Shown here: positions 20,065 to 26,080 of the stretch, piece after piece
Layout of the letters: each line of letters starts with the position of its first letter
How positions within the stretch are numbered: position 1 is the stretch's first letter
NCBI GenBank assembly: GCA_002695185.1
Contig: NZOF01000173.1
Span: forward strand, 1-27,005
Length of the DNA stretch: 27,005 bases
From: Erythrobacter sp.
GTDB taxonomy: Bacteria > Pseudomonadota > Alphaproteobacteria > Sphingomonadales > Sphingomonadaceae
Direction: 5' to 3'
The notes under the pieces: model-generated
What the model was told of the DNA's origin: nothing
The model's database searches: none
What the model saw: the letters and a program-made list of their open reading frames with translations, nothing else
Made by a program: the position numbers and the translations under genes

Positions 20065-20763
20065 ATGCGCCCTGCAAGTTTGTCGATCGTCCTATCCGCT
20101 TTCACATTGGTTGCCTGCTCGAACGAAGTCGAAGAGCAACCCTCGACCGAGCAGACAAGCGAGGACGTAGCGCCTCAAGACATCATAGTTCAGGGTGATG
20201 AGCGCCGTATTCTCGCATTCGGTGACAGCTTGTTCGCCGGCTACAATCTTGCCGAGCATCAAGGCTATCCAGAACGGCTCGAGCGCGCCCTGCGCAAAGA
20301 AGGTGTGAACGCGCGTGTGATTGATGCTGGGGTGTCCGGTGATACCAGTGCCGCGGGTAGGCAGAGACTGGCATTCGTGCTCGATCAGCAAGCGGAAAAG
20401 CCGGATCTCGTTATGCTGGAACTGGGCGGCAACGACATGCTCCGCGGCATAGATCCGGCGGACACACGCGCCAATTTCGAGGCGATGCTTGAGGAATTGC
20501 AAAGCCGAGACATCCCCGTCCTGTTGATGGGTATGCGCGCTCCGCCCAATTACGGACCGGATTATCAGCAGCGTTTCGATGCGATCTATGGAGAGCTGGC
20601 AGCCGATTACGATGCAGAGCTGGTGCCGTTCTGGCTCGAGAGTATCTACGAGGAACCATCACTCTTCCAGTCGGACCGCATTCATCCGACTGAGAAGGGC
20701 GTCGACATGTTGGTAGCTGACACGGTCGACGATGTAAAAACCGCGCTTCCGGTCGAGAATTAA
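20065..20763 (+). CDS. tesA: TesA-like GDSL/SGNH arylesterase, predicted lipoprotein
   Basis: This 232-residue SGNH hydrolase corresponds to E. coli TesA (thioesterase I / lysophospholipase / arylesterase). The four family blocks are complete: FGDSL with nucleophile Ser55, GVSGDTSAAG with Gly92, GGND with Asn123, and DRIHP with Asp204 and His207. Unlike the plain secreted E. coli enzyme, this one has a lipobox, LVACS, with lipid Cys18, then an acidic linker of about 30 residues. It should therefore be anchored in the periplasm. AAGGA lies about 9 bases before ATG 20065. It is divergent from ybbAP and ends tail-to-tail with recF, sharing four bases. Confidence 0.94.
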   Translation: MRPASLSIVLSAFTLVACSNEVEEQPSTEQTSEDVAPQDIIVQGDERRILAFGDSLFAGYNLAEHQGYPERLERALRKEGVNARVIDAGVSGDTSAAGRQRLAFVLDQQAEKPDLVMLELGGNDMLRGIDPADTRANFEAMLEELQSRDIPVLLMGMRAPPNYGPDYQQRFDAIYGELAADYDAELVPFWLESIYEEPSLFQSDRIHPTEKGVDMLVADTVDDVKTALPVEN

Positions 20764-21842
20764 AGGCGGTCGACCTGACCGCCCGTGACCCGCCAGACAG
20801 CGGCGCGGTCCGCGATGCTATCGAACGGTGCAATTTCCGTTCCGGTCATCCAGACCTGCGCGCCGCTGGCCTCTAGCTGGTCGAACAAGGCAGCACGGCG
20901 CAGTGGATCGAGATGGGCAGCGACTTCATCGAGCAGCAACAGGCCGGTGCGTCCTTGAGCAGCCAAGGCAGCATGAGCCAGGGTAATGGCGACGAGCATG
21001 GCCTTCTGCTCGCCCGTCGAGCTTTGCGCCGCGGCGACCCGTTTGGCTGCATGTACGACTTCCAGCTCGTCACGATGCGGCCCAACCAGCGTTCGCTGCG
21101 CAGAACGATCGCGCTGGCGGCCATCGAATAACGCCTGAGACAAGGCCTCGGCATTGTCTGCTCCTCCAGGAGCATAGGTCAGGGCGGGGCGCGCGAAGGG
21201 CTCGCTCGGCATATGAGCGATGCGAGCCATAAGTGTTTCCACCAGAGCTGCACGTCCGGCGATCAAGCGCCCACCATGTTCGACCATCTGGGCTTCGATC
21301 GCATCGAGCCAAGCGCTTTCAGGCGGACGGTCGTCCGATAGTAAGCGGTTGCGTTCGCGCAGCGCCCCTTCGTAACGCGCAGCATGAACGGCATGTGCAG
21401 GGTCTAGAGCCAACGCCATCCGATCCACGAAGCGCCTTCTATCGGCAGCAGGGCCGGTAAAGAGCCCGTCCATTGCTGGAGTAAGCCAAGTTAGTGCAAG
21501 CCACTCGCCAAGCGCGGTTGCAGTCGCTTCGGCGCCATTAATTCGCACCTTCCGGCGCCCAGGTTGCTGACTCTCAGAATAGGTGGCGAGGCGAACAGGA
21601 TCGCTGTCATTGAGAGCCGAAAGGCTCGCCCCGACGCCGAAACCATCGGTGGAATTATGCTGCACTATTTCTGCCAGCGGAGCGCGGCGCAAACCTCTGC
21701 CCGGCGATAGCAGTGAGATAGCCTCTAGAACATTAGTCTTACCGGCGCCATTTTCGCCCACAAGCAGGTTGAACCGTGCGGTGCCTGTCAGTTCAGTGGC
21801 CGAATGATTACGGAAATGAGTGAGGGAGATCCGGTCCAGCAT
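20760..21842 (-). CDS. recF: DNA replication and repair protein RecF
   Basis: RecF is an SMC-like ATPase that loads RecA at gaps with RecO and RecR. The 360-residue protein begins MLDRISLTHFRNHS, with Walker A GENGAGKT (29-36). It has the RecF pattern LEAISLLSPGRGLR and LTWLTPAMDGLFTGPAADRRRFVDR, then the signature STGEQKAMLVAITLAHA and Walker B LLLLDEVAAHLD. ATG 21842 is the family start; an upstream in-frame start at 21878 has no support. The gene is not next to dnaA or dnaN here, as is common in alphaproteobacteria. It overlaps the tesA-like gene by 4 bases at a shared TTAA. Confidence 0.97.
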   Translation of the reverse strand: MLDRISLTHFRNHSATELTGTARFNLLVGENGAGKTNVLEAISLLSPGRGLRRAPLAEIVQHNSTDGFGVGASLSALNDSDPVRLATYSESQQPGRRKVRINGAEATATALGEWLALTWLTPAMDGLFTGPAADRRRFVDRMALALDPAHAVHAARYEGALRERNRLLSDDRPPESAWLDAIEAQMVEHGGRLIAGRAALVETLMARIAHMPSEPFARPALTYAPGGADNAEALSQALFDGRQRDRSAQRTLVGPHRDELEVVHAAKRVAAAQSSTGEQKAMLVAITLAHAALAAQGRTGLLLLDEVAAHLDPLRRAALFDQLEASGAQVWMTGTEIAPFDSIADRAAVWRVTGGQVDRL

Positions 21843-21994
21843 GGGCGGATTAGGCCGTAACGCGCAGCCTCGTCCCAAGCCAGCTTAAACGCAGATCTAA
21901 CTGTTGGGGAATTTCACCAATCTTTCGGATTGATGAACAGATCAAGTTCGCGTGGTTAAGATAGAAATGGCTCAATTCCGCCATTCTTCGAGTT

Positions 21995-22010
21995 TGGCAC
22001 ACCCGTTGCA
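21995..22010 (+). promoter_or_regulatory. sigma-54 (RpoN) -24/-12 promoter
   Basis: TGGCAC (21995-22000), five bases, then TTGCA (22006-22010) matches the RpoN consensus TGGCACG-N4-TTGCW at all positions but one, with correct GG-to-GC spacing. Transcription would begin near 22021, about 50 bases before the first micropeptide gene. Sigma-54 control fits a PspC-containing unit, because the E. coli psp operon also uses sigma-54 with the activator PspF. An enhancer site should lie upstream in 21843-21990. I see only short dyads there (TTGG-N9-CCAA near 21904 and CAATC-N5-GATTG near 21919) and cannot assign them. Confidence 0.75.
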
Positions 22011-22071
22011 ATCAATTTGGTGTCAGCCGGATGGTCCGGTGACAAGCCAAAGTTCAAGGGAAAAACAAACA

Positions 22072-22191
22072 ATGTTCAACATCGACTTCGCCAACAACAA
22101 GGCAATCGCAGCAGTCTTCGCTTTCGGCGCTTCGGCCATGATGATGGCTTACGCAATCATCCCCGCCAGCCCCTCCGGTCTGCTCGTCTGA
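22072..22191 (+). CDS. 39-residue membrane micropeptide, copy 1
   Basis: A short gene encodes 39 residues: MFNIDFANNKAIA, then a hydrophobic helix rich in Ala and Met (about 12-30), then IIPASPSGLLV. AAGGGA lies about 11 bases before the ATG. It is paralogous to the next gene: both are exactly 39 residues, begin MF(N/D)I, share an Ala-rich single membrane helix, and end YAI-hydrophobic-PASP-x-G-x-L-x. Conservation between two tandem copies argues that both are translated. I do not recognise the family. Position behind a sigma-54 promoter and before pspC suggests a membrane-stress role, perhaps PspB-like in placement but not in sequence. Confidence 0.75.
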   Translation: MFNIDFANNKAIAAVFAFGASAMMMAYAIIPASPSGLLV

Positions 22192-22227
22192 TCTGTTTCA
22201 ACTCGCTAAAAAAAGGAAATATCTAAA

Positions 22228-22347
22228 ATGTTCGACATCGAAAAATCCGGCGGAAAGCTCCTCGCAGCCGCGTTCTCTCTCGCTCTCTCCGCCGCCATGT
22301 TGGCCTATGCCATCGTCCCCGCCTCACCCAATGGAGTTCTCGCATGA
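22228..22347 (+). CDS. 39-residue membrane micropeptide, copy 2
   Basis: This second 39-residue gene starts MFDIEKSGGKLLAA, has one membrane helix (about 11-31), and ends with VPASPNGVLA. The ribosome site AAAAAAAGGAAAT precedes the ATG by about 10 bases and is strong. Its stop overlaps the pspC start at ATGA, so it is translationally coupled to pspC and belongs to the same operon. About half of its residues match copy 1, mainly at both ends, while the DNA has diverged. This points to an old duplication kept under selection. It is below the usual length cut-off for gene finders, so it is easily missed. Confidence 0.78.
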   Translation: MFDIEKSGGKLLAAAFSLALSAAMLAYAIVPASPNGVLA

Positions 22348-22565
22348 GCCAGCTGAAATTCCGCGATGAAGACAATGCAGTCACTCCGAGCAAGAAGTTT
22401 CGCCTCGATCGTCAGAACGGCAAACTAATGGGCGTCTGCGCCGGGATCGGCCGGTATTTCGGAGTGGATACGACGATGGTCCGCGTCGGTTTCGTACTTG
22501 GTACGCTGCTCGGCTTCGGAAGCTTCATCCTCATCTATCTCGGCATTGCACTGGTTGCCGACTAA
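22344..22565 (+). CDS. pspC: PspC domain protein (phage-shock type)
   Basis: This 73-residue protein is a compact PspC domain: FRLDRQNGKLMGVCAGIGRYFGVDTTMVRVGFVLGTLLGFGSFILIYLGIALVAD. KLMGVCAGIGRYF(G) followed by a V-D-x-x-x-V-R helix and one or two membrane segments is diagnostic. In enterobacteria PspC senses inner-membrane stress with PspB and frees PspF from PspA. No pspA, pspB or pspF is visible in this window, so partners must lie elsewhere or be replaced by the micropeptides. Its start overlaps the stop of micropeptide copy 2 by four bases. Confidence 0.92.
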   Translation: MSQLKFRDEDNAVTPSKKFRLDRQNGKLMGVCAGIGRYFGVDTTMVRVGFVLGTLLGFGSFILIYLGIALVAD

Positions 22566-22597: not shown

Positions 22598-23380
22598 TCA
22601 CATGGCCGAGATACCGCCATCGAGCTTGAGCTCTGCGCCGGTCATGAACTTGCTCTCGTCACTGGCGAGATAGACCACGGCATTCGCGATATCGTCCGGC
22701 TCCCCAACTTTGCGGAGCGGTATTTGGCGGGCAAGCTTGTCCAGCAGTACTTTCTTGTCGAGGCTGTGCGCCTTGGCAGTACCGTCCAGGATCGGAGTGT
22801 CGACGAAGGTCGGGTGGACCGAGTTACACCGAATATCCATATTGTTCTTCGCGCAGTGCAAAGCGATCGACTTCGACAGCATCCAGACTGCCGCCTTGCT
22901 AGAGTTGTAGGCAGGCATGGTATCACTGGCGATAAGCCCGGCGATGCTGGAAATGTTCACGATCGAACCGGGCGCGTGATCGCGCATCAGCGGCAGGGCC
23001 TTCTGGCAGCCGTGAAAAATCGAATCCACATTGACTGCAAAGCAGCGCTTCCAATCATCGAATTCGCAATTCTCGATATTTCCGGCAACGCCGATGCCGG
23101 CGTTGTTGATGAGGACGTTCAATCCGCCAAGGTGTTCGCGTGCGGCTTCTACAGCAGCCTCCCACGCCTGCGGATCCGTCACATCGTGTTCGATCGAAAA
23201 AGCAGTCCCTTCGCCCAACTCCTTGTTTATGAGTTTGGCGCTTTCCGCTGCCCCATCACCATTGAGATCGGTGCAGAGTACACGCGAGCCTTCTTCGGCA
23301 AGTCTGCGGGCATGCGCGCGGCCGAGACCTTGGGCGGCACCTGTAACTAGCGCCAGCTTACCTTCGCAGCGACCCGCCAT
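22598..23380 (-). CDS. short-chain dehydrogenase/reductase
   Basis: This 260-residue classical SDR oxidises or reduces an alcohol/ketone with NAD(P). It has TGAAQGLG (13-20) for the cofactor, NNAG, a catalytic triad Ser145, Tyr158 and Lys162 (ISSIAG, YNSSK), and a C-terminal FMTGAELKLDGG. Asp at the end of the second strand (VLCTDLNGD) suggests NAD rather than NADP. It resembles the steroid/cyclic-alcohol dehydrogenase group common in sphingomonads, but the substrate is open. ATG 23380 is preferred because AGGAG lies 7 bases upstream; a GTG at 23386 would leave only one base. It is the last gene of the lemA transcript, 2 bases after the Nudix gene. Confidence 0.92.
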   Translation of the reverse strand: MAGRCEGKLALVTGAAQGLGRAHARRLAEEGSRVLCTDLNGDGAAESAKLINKELGEGTAFSIEHDVTDPQAWEAAVEAAREHLGGLNVLINNAGIGVAGNIENCEFDDWKRCFAVNVDSIFHGCQKALPLMRDHAPGSIVNISSIAGLIASDTMPAYNSSKAAVWMLSKSIALHCAKNNMDIRCNSVHPTFVDTPILDGTAKAHSLDKKVLLDKLARQIPLRKVGEPDDIANAVVYLASDESKFMTGAELKLDGGISAM

Positions 23381-23382
23381 AC

Positions 23383-23928
23383 TCACTCTCCTTCAATGAT
23401 TTCCTGTCCGAGCAGAAGGAGCATACGTACGTCCGTGCCGCAACCTTCACGGCGTTTGGAAGTCAGAAAAGCCGGCAGATCGGTTCTCGCCACCCGGTGT
23501 ACGGTGATATTTTCGCCTTCAACACCGCCACCCTCGTGGATTTTCGTCAGGCCCCGGGCGCGGACAAGAGTAAAATTTTCGCTGACCATGCCGGGCGAGG
23601 AGTAGAATTCACCCATGTTTTCCAAGCTGGCAGCGCGGTAACCGGTTTCTTCTTCCAGTTCCCGTCCTGCAGCGTCCAGCGCATCTTCATCTTCGCCACC
23701 GTCATCGTCGCCGATCAGCCCTGCAGGAAGCTCGATGCAATTACGCCCAAGCGGCACGCGATATTGTTCGACGAGCAGGACATGGTCGCCTTCATCTATC
23801 GCGAGAATGACAGCAGCACGAATGCCGCGGCTGCGCGAAACATATTCCCAGCGGCCGCGGGTCTTGGTAGTAATGTATTTACCCTGCCAGACGATCTCTT
23901 CTGGTTTGTCGTGATCGGTAGCGCCCAC
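23383..23928 (-). CDS. Nudix hydrolase, ADP-ribose pyrophosphatase-like
   Basis: This 181-residue protein resembles the ADP-ribose pyrophosphatase group, which cleaves ADP-ribose or similar nucleoside diphosphates. AAVILAIDEGDHVLLVEQYRVPLG and ELPAG precede a Nudix box around residues 70-97 whose catalytic core REL-E-EETGY (89-97) is intact. The first half of the box holds an acidic insertion (GDDDGGEDED), so the usual leading Gly is displaced. GEFYSSPGMVSE matches the substrate loop of the family. The start is GTG 23928, two bases after the TPM gene stop; there is no in-frame ATG nearby. Linkage with lemA/TPM genes is probably only transcriptional. Confidence 0.88.
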   Translation of the reverse strand: MGATDHDKPEEIVWQGKYITTKTRGRWEYVSRSRGIRAAVILAIDEGDHVLLVEQYRVPLGRNCIELPAGLIGDDDGGEDEDALDAAGRELEEETGYRAASLENMGEFYSSPGMVSENFTLVRARGLTKIHEGGGVEGENITVHRVARTDLPAFLTSKRREGCGTDVRMLLLLGQEIIEGE

Positions 23929-23930
23929 GG

Positions 23931-24605
23931 TTAGAGCTCGATAAGCCGGTCGGGCAATTCGTTCTCGTCATCATCTGCACGCGGGAAGTTTTCCGCTAGC
24001 ACCTTGCCGACATCTCTCACGCCTGCAGCGAGACCTTCGGCGAGGCGGCCGCGGCTGACTTCGGCCAGCATGTCTGCCATCGCCTCTCCCCAGATCTCAG
24101 CGTGGACCATCTCGGCAATAGGCTCATCCGCCACGATTTCGGCGCGATGCTCGCGCATGGAAAGATAAAGCAGGACGCCGGTGCGGCCGTGGGTTCGGCG
24201 TTCCGCCCCGACCTTGAAGTGTCGGACAGCGGCATCGCGGACGCGGTCGGCGGTAACGGGCCCGGGAATGAGCTTGAACTTGAGCGGTTGCCATAGCTGA
24301 AGCGCCAGCATTAGAAGGAATGTCACGAGACCGACAAGGAGAAGGACGGTGAGAACCTGACCCTGCGACCATTCGCTCGACCAGCCACCGGCGAAGCTGT
24401 CGACCACCGAAAGCACAGTTTCCGGTATCATCGCAAAGAGGCTCATCGCAGTGAAGCTTGCACCTACCGCCCACCATAGCGCGACATCGGTGTAACCGTC
24501 CGAGCGATCGGCAAGGACAGTCACGATCTCGCCACTGGTCGTCAACTCGGCTTGCGCGACAGAATCACTGACTATCGTGTGCTGTTTTTCATTCAGATAG
24601 CCCAT
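23931..24605 (-). CDS. TPM domain membrane protein, cytoplasmic/split type
   Basis: This 224-residue protein belongs to the TPM (YgcG-like) family but lacks a signal peptide. The first TPM half (SVAQAELTTSGEIVTVLADRSDGY, about 15-38) is cut from the second half (RRTHGRTGVLLYLSMREHRAEIVADEPIAEMV, about 136-167) by two membrane helices (about 41-65 and 84-106). Related proteins occur next to a secreted TPM protein and LemA. The function is unknown; some secreted TPM proteins have been linked to phosphatase activity or photosystem repair. Its ATG overlaps the previous stop (TAATG), and the Nudix gene starts 2 bases after its own stop. Confidence 0.87.
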   Translation of the reverse strand: MGYLNEKQHTIVSDSVAQAELTTSGEIVTVLADRSDGYTDVALWWAVGASFTAMSLFAMIPETVLSVVDSFAGGWSSEWSQGQVLTVLLLVGLVTFLLMLALQLWQPLKFKLIPGPVTADRVRDAAVRHFKVGAERRTHGRTGVLLYLSMREHRAEIVADEPIAEMVHAEIWGEAMADMLAEVSRGRLAEGLAAGVRDVGKVLAENFPRADDDENELPDRLIEL

Positions 24606-25438
24606 TACCAGCCCCCCGAGGCGCCACCGCCCCCGAAACTTCCGCCGCCTCCGCCGAAGCCGCCTCCACCAAAGCCTCCGCCGCCGAAGCCGCCTCCGCC
24701 CCAGCCGCCGCCACTGCGATCACCGAAACCACGAGCAACGGCCTTTCCAGCCTCCCAGAGCATGATGTCGCGAGCCGCGTTGCCCCAAGGACCGCCGCGA
24801 TAGCGCCGGCGTTTTCCTCGACCACGCAGCATGGGCAGAATGAAGAAGAAAAAGATGAATCCTAACCAAATCAGCGTTCCTATCGGGAAACCCCCGCTAC
24901 GGCTTTCGCGCTGCGTCTGTGCCTGCTGCGCTACCTGCGCCGCTTCCTCGGGAGGAAGTTGCAACTGATTGATGATCTGATCGGCGCCCCATTCGATGCC
25001 GGCGGAATAATCGCCTTCGCGAAAATAGGGCTTCATGCCTTCAACATACTCATAGGCCAGACCGTCCGGGATGATGCCTTCCAAGCCGTAGCCAACCTCT
25101 ACGCGCATCTGGCGTTCGTTCGGCGCAACCAGAAGAATGATCCCATCGTTCCGATCCGCATCTCCCAACTGCCAGTATCGGCCGATCTGATAGCCGTAAT
25201 CGGCGATATCGTACCCCTGCAAATCCGGCACCGTTGCCACCACGAACTCCCGCTGGTTTGCTTCCTCGAAGGCTTCCAGCTTGCGGGTAAGCTCGGCTTC
25301 GGTCGCATCGTCGATGATATTGGCTTCATCGACGACTGGCGCGGTTCCCCGCTCGGGAAAGGAGGGCTGGGCGGCGGCTGGCCAGGCGAACCCCGTCGCA
25401 GCCACCACCATTACCAGTAACCTGGTCAGAAGATTCAT
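24605..25438 (-). CDS. secreted TPM domain protein with glycine-rich tail (YgcG-like)
   Basis: This 277-residue protein has a signal peptide (MNLLTRLLVMVVAATGFAWPAAA, then QPS). A TPM domain follows at about 35-160, with VVDEANIID, FVVATVPDLQGYDIADYGYQIGRYWQLGDADRNDGIILLVAPNERQMRVEVGYGLEG and a terminal IINQL. A single membrane helix lies at about 188-206, then a basic patch GRGKRRRYR, and a C-terminal tail of GGGGF repeats (about 243-277). The TPM domain would lie in the periplasm, held by the helix. The order LemA, secreted TPM, second TPM is a recurring bacterial cluster. The role is unproven; envelope maintenance is the usual suggestion. Confidence 0.93.
   Translation of the reverse strand: MNLLTRLLVMVVAATGFAWPAAAQPSFPERGTAPVVDEANIIDDATEAELTRKLEAFEEANQREFVVATVPDLQGYDIADYGYQIGRYWQLGDADRNDGIILLVAPNERQMRVEVGYGLEGIIPDGLAYEYVEGMKPYFREGDYSAGIEWGADQIINQLQLPPEEAAQVAQQAQTQRESRSGGFPIGTLIWLGFIFFFFILPMLRGRGKRRRYRGGPWGNAARDIMLWEAGKAVARGFGDRSGGGWGGGGFGGGGFGGGGFGGGGGSFGGGGASGGW
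24608..24712 (-). repeat. glycine-rich coding repeat (GGGGF units)
   Basis: The 3' end of the secreted TPM gene is built of short repeated codon blocks encoding Gly-Gly-Gly-Gly-Phe. On plus this appears as runs of CCGCC, CCTCC and GAAGCC. The repeat is prone to slippage and length change between strains. It also generates a proline-rich plus-strand shadow frame that is not a gene. Confidence 0.85.
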
Positions 25439-25465
25439 AATTTGCGCTCCTCCCCCGCGCGTAGA

Positions 25466-26080
25466 TCAGTCTGCGCTGCTGCGCATGTCGAGCTGCGGCG
25501 CAGCTTCGGCCCCTTCGGTCACGGCCTCATAAGGGACCATCGGCTCTGCACCGTGAATGATGTTCGCGCCGATCGTGTCCGGGAAGGTACGGATGGTCGT
25601 GTTATACTGGCGCACAGCTTCGTTGTAATCCTTCACCGACACGGCGATGCGGTTTTCGGTGCCTTCGAGCTGCGTCATGAAACGACCGAAGTTTTCCTGG
25701 CTACGCAGTTCGGGATACCGTTCGACCGAGACGAGCAGACGGCTCAACGCACCGCCGAGATTCTGCTGAGCCTGCTGGAATTGCTGCATTTTGGCCGGAT
25801 CGTTCAGATCGTCACCCTCAAGCTGAATCTCGGGGCGGGTGGCCGATGCGCGGGCCTGGATCACTTCGTTGAGCGTCTGGCGCTCTTCCTCTGCCGAAGA
25901 CATTACCACCTGCTCCAGATTGGGGATCAGGTTCGCGCGGCGCTGGAAGTCGGCTTCGACGTTTGCCCATTTTGCCTTGGCGTTTTCTTCGGCCGTGGGG
26001 ACCGAATTGATGCCACAGGCGGACACAGCCAAGGCGGCGGCGCCGAGCAAGGCGGAGCGGAAAGCGGTCAAGCGGTTCAT
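25466..26080 (-). CDS. lemA: LemA family protein
   Basis: This 204-residue LemA-type protein is of unknown molecular function. It has an N-terminal signal with a lipobox (AVSAC, Cys22) instead of the plain membrane helix of many LemA proteins. The family core follows: AKWANVEADFQRRANLIPNLEQVV, ARASATRPEIQ, NLGGALSRLLVSVERYPELRSQENF, and LEGTENRIAVSVKDYNEAVRQYNTTIRTFP. The core is helical and probably periplasmic. It is the first gene of the lemA-TPM-TPM-Nudix-SDR transcript, 27 bases before the secreted TPM gene. Confidence 0.93.
   Translation of the reverse strand: MNRLTAFRSALLGAAALAVSACGINSVPTAEENAKAKWANVEADFQRRANLIPNLEQVVMSSAEEERQTLNEVIQARASATRPEIQLEGDDLNDPAKMQQFQQAQQNLGGALSRLLVSVERYPELRSQENFGRFMTQLEGTENRIAVSVKDYNEAVRQYNTTIRTFPDTIGANIIHGAEPMVPYEAVTEGAEAAPQLDMRSSAD

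Follow-up and report, generated by a model that had tools for sequence, protein, structure and literature searches.

The window analysed here, a stretch of 27,005 nucleotides, carries on its plus strand a sigma-54 (RpoN) -24/-12 element, TTGGCACACCCGTTGCA, at positions 21994-22010, which scores 21.3 of a possible 21.8 against the consensus and is followed by three closely spaced genes. The first, an ATG frame at 22072-22191 (MFNI...YAIIPASPSGLLV), encodes peptide 1, a predicted single-pass membrane protein of 39 aa with a predicted helix at residues 3-32. The second, an ATG frame at 22228-22347 (MFDI...YAIVPASPNGVLA), encodes peptide 2, a paralogous predicted single-pass membrane protein, also of 39 aa; both belong to the unnamed family described by profile A1 below. 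The third gene, at 22344-22565, encodes a short PspC-domain protein of 73 aa without a C-terminal tail, and its ATG overlaps the stop codon of peptide 2 (ATGA). The unit lacks pspA and pspB, pspC is its last gene, and the next long frame lies on the minus strand. The flanking minus-strand frames were named by eye as recF-like (20760-21878) and SDR-like (22598-23386). A LemA gene and two TPM-domain genes, also on the minus strand (23931-26080), make up an ordinary-looking cluster near the psp unit. A preliminary description of this DNA had reported an RpoN site, two 39-residue frames and a coupled pspC, all of which lie where it placed them, and the promoter score bears out its claim of a sigma-54 promoter. 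It had overlooked a further plus-strand element, CTGTTGGGGAATTTCACCAA, at 21901-21920, which we found as part of a de novo motif; this predicted PspF-binding upstream activating element lies 93 bp before the sigma-54 element begins.

Searching with the window's PspC protein, we collected at least 80 pspC loci from Qipengyuania, Erythrobacter, Parasphingorhabdus, Sphingorhabdus, Blastomonas, Croceibacterium, Novosphingobium and other genera. We sorted them into 50 loci with a sigma-54 site near pspC and no intervening pspA, 25 loci of the pspABC type and 5 of neither class (L054, L055, L061, L069 and L071), in which no sigma-54 site at the cut-off lies in place upstream of pspC. On a single strand, the background density of sigma-54-like sites is 0.041 per 500 bases. 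With the window counted, micropeptides lie between the sigma-54 site and pspC in 51 of 51 pspC-type loci, two in 37 loci and one in 14, and the first peptide starts 67-83 bases after the promoter element. All 88 peptides are 37-47 aa long. The homologous small frames beside pspC that the preliminary description expected in relatives are present in all 51. Among the Qipengyuania and Erythrobacter members, in-frame pN/pS was 0.46 for peptide 1 (55 pairs) and 0.39 for peptide 2 (21 pairs), compared with 1.26-1.62 in the two other frames; pspC gave 0.11 (6 pairs). Hence, the frames clearly evolve as coding sequence, and the earlier suggestion of selection on both paralogous micropeptides holds, with no excess of non-synonymous changes.

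Neither window peptide matched a model in Pfam or NCBIfam, and the 47 micropeptides from which profile A1 was built returned only noise-level rows from these databases, none of them pointing to PspG or PspD. We took as noise the Pfam family PhrC_PhrF (2 of 47 members, best E 0.024), four weak NCBIfam rows and a PADLOC row at E 0.043. The window's PspC matches PF04024 with 62.8 bits (cut-off 25), in agreement with the earlier remark that only pspC is recognisable. A protein search scored 7983 candidates and found 529 relatives at E <= 0.01. Many of the best 120 of these 529 are unnamed, and the names that occur are mostly hypothetical protein or enoyl-CoA hydratase; one relative among the matches listed is called recombination protein F. 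Three micropeptides (P0004, P0011 and P0030) bear such seemingly misassigned names, recombination protein F or enoyl-CoA hydratase, which we take to have been wrongly carried over, and the family gives reason to correct some database names. Within open-licence PubMed Central we saw no literature on such peptides, which does not show that none exists, and none that combined PspC with Sphingomonadales or small proteins with Sphingomonas and ribosome profiling. Sphingomonads go unmentioned in the main texts of two Psp surveys (PMC11237479 and PMC9239133).

The de novo motif, AAGTTGGTGAAATTTCCCAA, is a 20-bp near-palindrome. All 50 micropeptide-pspC promoters searched (L016, with too little upstream DNA, was left out) carry it 92-93 bp before the sigma-54 element, the weakest copies being those of L025 and L042. 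We applied its matrix to the 25 pspABC promoters, none of which had been used in training, scanning 150 bases on both strands against 100 dinucleotide shuffles each. The matrix beat the shuffles in 24 of 25 promoters (p <= 0.02), at 90-106 bases from the sigma-54 element; the sole failure was L066, from a Lysobacterales MAG. At E. coli K-12 pspA it picked TTGTTAGTGTAATTCGCTAA, 83 bases before the element, with 16.3 bits (0 of 200 mononucleotide shuffles were as good), and at pspG a 12.2-bit site 70 bases before the element (1 of 200 shuffles as good). The site picked at pspA is presumably the experimentally mapped one. Since the same matrix matches pspABC promoters as well as E. coli pspA and pspG, the upstream element is very probably a PspF operator, with PspF as its predicted binder, and the putative operator motif appears to hold from E. 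coli to Sphingomonadales. When 20 pspABC promoters (200 bases upstream) were searched for a motif by themselves, the search settled on coding sequence of pspF instead of an operator and was discarded. A joint scan for operator and sigma-54 site gave 83 matches in 971,935 bases, including 49 of the 50 training promoters, and is not independent evidence; one match fell at L069.

In the genomes of 25 relatives, rpoN is present in all 25 and pspF over the cut-off in 24. The one lacking pspF over the cut-off, G003, is a perhaps incomplete MAG that has the operon and only one PspC. The absence of rpoN, named in the preliminary description as a finding that would speak against its proposal, was encountered in none of the relatives searched. 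We are highly confident that the unit is under the control of sigma-54 and PspF. The same description had favoured a separate envelope-stress system differing from pspABC, and this idea finds no support: the predicted PspF operator at near-same spacing is common to pspABC promoters, pspF occurs in 24 of 25 of the same genomes, and similar small membrane ORFs lead 20 of the 25 pspABC operons.

These pspABC leaders are small hydrophobic frames between the promoter and pspA, and 18 of the 20 have alanine as last residue. Their resemblance to the micropeptides is one of build. Three pspABC loci (L063, L066 and L067) have no small leader frame, L079 has an unlike one, and L057, which lies in the same genome as L092, has a longer leader protein. 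Two of the loci (L072:6432-7428 and L070:6397-7360) have three more small frames downstream of pspABC, each starting with a hydrophobic stretch and showing a repeated coiled-coil-like pattern such as LEDRVxVLERIVTDRGYD.

Profile A1 matched all 25 relatives' genomes at E <= 0.01, some of them with more copies than the pspC unit explains. Thirteen extra places were found, one of which is the pspABC leader of L092. The other twelve are non-psp places, and the 4.5 kb read at each contains no psp gene. A sigma-54 site lies 80-93 bases before the first profile match in 10 of these 12, and 9 of the 10 also have the element at 92-93 bp, the exception being L085 (5.2 bits). At L088, two good tandem micropeptides have no recognisable sigma-54 site or operator upstream, and the match at L093 is probably false.

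We then used A1 alone, with no promoter or pspC criterion, on 147 genomes of the order (E <= 0.001). Matches occurred in 35 genomes and none in the other 112. All 35 matching genomes have pspF, and none of the 14 genomes without pspF has a match. In a sample of 289 genomes of the class, three matched at E <= 1e-4, two from the same order and one inside a 553-residue frame. As new material we took all 36 clusters in the 31 matching genomes not examined before, a test that is independent in selection but not in ancestry, some genomes being close relatives of training ones. A sigma-54 site is present in 35 of 36 clusters, 70-105 bases before the first profile match, and is accompanied by the element at >= 8 bits in 31; of the remaining five clusters, four have their best element match still at 93, but below 8 bits. 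Downstream lies pspC without pspA in 25 clusters and pspA in 7, which places 32 of 36 upstream of one or the other; in the remaining 4, the DNA read contains no psp gene. One of these, L129, lacks a promoter as well and is probably a false match. The co-occurrence of the peptides with short PspC and RpoN sites, which the preliminary description had proposed to test across Sphingomonadales, was thus found again, with sigma-54 sites at 35 and short pspC at 25 of 36 clusters.

These results bear on two other readings of the small frames. Short frames are common, and these were filed without a family, as one would expect of chance frames in a long psp leader transcript. This reading is contradicted by the frame-specific pN/pS, the 529 relatives and the sigma-54 sites at 35 of 36 clusters, and we give it hardly any credence. 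The frames could instead be cis-acting leader peptides whose translation controls the downstream psp gene, as might be suggested by their position between promoter and psp gene in 51 of 51 pspC-type and 20 of 25 pspABC-type loci and by the overlap of peptide 2 with pspC (ATGA). However, the same promoter precedes clusters for which the DNA read shows no psp gene (10, plus 3 of the 4 profile-only ones), the constraint acts on amino acids, and the region contains no Rfam match and no terminator-like site. We consider such a leader function improbable.

The peptides do not accompany every Psp response. Of the 98 pspF-bearing genomes without an A1 match we read 20, chosen mostly among the higher-scoring genomes and not at random, and 17 of these 20 have no family-like leader before pspA (two of the 17 have an unlike GTG frame). 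Two of the other three have a membrane leader of 69-74 residues and one (L149) a 169-residue protein. On these counts we rejected the idea of a leader common to all psp operons. Since 112 of 147 genomes have no match and 17 of 20 no such leader, the peptides are not needed for the Psp response as such. A different type of pspA was seen at L130-L139, L141-L144, L146 and L147, where some 300-530 bases separate the promoter from pspA and no leader resembles the family; L140 has a short leader.

The PspC encoded by the unit differs from that of pspABC operons. The window copy scores 54.7 bits against the PspC equivalog model (TIGR02978), below the cut-off of 104, and has 44 residues from GV (of GVC) to its end, compared with 106-109 in pspABC-type PspC. 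All 51 unit-type PspC proteins end with the PspC domain (43 with 44-46 residues from GV to the end, 8 judged by eye), while all 22 pspABC-type PspC proteins measured continue for about 62 residues further (21 by pattern, L027 by eye; L066, L067 and L079 were left out of the count). Short PspC is also present in 25 of 25 pspC-type profile-only clusters, 23 with 44-45 residues from GVC and two with GVS by eye. In a study of E. coli PspC (PMC3068692), PspA was contacted by only one of three fragments, residues 40-119, and the leucine zipper was required. As the tail that contacts PspA in enterobacteria is missing, the short PspC would most plausibly act as an effector only, without signalling to PspA, and a natural PspC of this kind may separate the effector from the signalling role. 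The preliminary description had cast the micropeptides as small partners of this PspC. Their association with short pspC is confirmed by the 51 loci and the 25 profile-only clusters, but an exclusive partnership is too narrow a view, because the peptides also occur in pspA leaders and in clusters without a psp gene.

With fewer than 50 aa and one predicted helix, the micropeptides have the size and predicted build of small membrane proteins. An AlphaFold2 model of a micropeptide consists of one helix, residues 3-32, with a mean pLDDT of 74 and the best values at residues 11-30. None of the 88 peptides has K or R after the hydrophobic core; 58 have K or R before the helix, and 30 have none there either. 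TonB-type domains are periplasmic in known TonB proteins. In two loci, L092:1774-2280 (minus strand) and L149:343-849, the first gene of the psp operon encodes a 169-residue protein with a hydrophobic N-terminal helix and a TonB_2-type domain (22.0 and 23.5 bits, cut-off 22). Taking the lack of K/R after the helix in 88 of 88 peptides together with the TonB-type domain behind the helix in these two leaders, we infer that the micropeptides are oriented with the N-terminus inside and the C-terminus outside, the positive-inside rule being weak for the 30 of 88. All 88 peptides end in A, I or V, although they are related and hence not 88 independent cases; among 323 long frames at the same loci, 18% do so. 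A small-xxx-small-xxx-small pattern is found in 75 of 84 distinct peptides, compared with 59.2 +/- 4.0 in shuffles. A packing face of four residues was not found: four small residues in register occur less often than in shuffles (2 vs 23.4).

The frames could also be signal-peptide-like precursors that signal peptidase would cleave between AxA and I/V-x-P, releasing a short periplasmic peptide. AYA or ATA does precede the tail in many Erythrobacteraceae members, and the two longer leaders place a TonB-type domain behind an N-terminal hydrophobic helix. However, AxA is not kept family-wide (there are SASVGPA, LSVGPAE and FAPPA types) and the tail sequence varies, which makes release of a peptide very improbable in our judgement.

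Overall, we propose, with a probability of about 0.6, that the locus is a second, pspA-less unit of the Psp regulon, making inner-membrane micropeptides and a tail-less PspC as effectors. PspF set free by membrane damage would occupy 21901-21920 and act upon sigma-54 RNA polymerase at 21994-22010. This would lead to the joint production of two micropeptides, likely single-pass inner-membrane proteins, and a C-terminally cut PspC as small Psp effectors. The peptides might pack against each other or against PspC by helix faces of small residues and so limit leak. That the peptides are inner-membrane effectors, rather than regulators, leaders or secreted peptides, seems to us somewhat better than an even bet; the data do not discriminate between these roles.

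Alternatively, the micropeptides could be feedback regulators that bind PspB, PspC, PspA or a membrane protease such as FtsH and adjust how strong the response is or how long it lasts. Their place at the head of psp operons, before pspC or pspA, would fit this role, and the tail-less PspC could compete with full PspC for PspB. However, the tandem copies and the extra stand-alone clusters look more like effector dosage, and the alignment has few conserved positions and no conserved charged one; feedback regulation is a possibility that we hold to be unlikely, though worth keeping in mind. A more speculative extension of the effector reading, which we regard as doubtful, is that, in these Sphingomonadales, the Psp response has been reorganised around large numbers of single-helix micropeptides, which several promoter copies in some genomes, with up to three peptides each, would deliver to the inner membrane when PspF is activated. 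The non-polar periplasmic C-terminus might then be a tag for a protease or a PDZ-type sensor, so that the peptides plug or stiffen the bilayer and report its repair, with the tail-less PspC as a scaffold.

Many small membrane proteins have no known function. This family comes with a likely regulator, as its promoters tie the micropeptides to the well-studied Psp response, and each unit, with its one to three very small genes and a switch of familiar type, lends itself to a direct test. To our knowledge, the effector step of that response, how the inner membrane is protected, is still open, and the peptides probably form a small-protein arm, so far overlooked, of the way bacteria respond to membrane damage.

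Among the closest known systems, the enterobacterial Psp regulon (PspF, pspABCDE and pspG) shares with the window unit the sigma-54 promoter and the upstream element. Like E. coli pspG, the window unit is a second unit apart from pspABC. Unlike the enterobacterial regulon, it has no pspA or pspB and contains 39-aa single-helix peptides and a tail-less PspC, and some sphingomonad genomes hold several such units. Its PspC shares the PspC domain with known PspC (TIGR02978; PF04024) but has lost the roughly 62 residues that follow it. E. coli PspG is a small PspF-controlled inner-membrane effector with two predicted helices (PMC2763126); the micropeptides are likewise small and predicted to be PspF-linked but have one predicted helix. 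Other small membrane proteins are comparable by description. E. coli YohP is a stress-induced small membrane protein whose production raises PspA and PspC (PMC12719787). It resembles the micropeptides in having fewer than 50 residues, one membrane helix and a stress context, whereas the micropeptide genes themselves carry a psp-type promoter. The Lia system of Firmicutes (LiaI and partners; PMC11237479) also places a small membrane protein beside envelope-stress genes, but in other bacteria and with another gene set.
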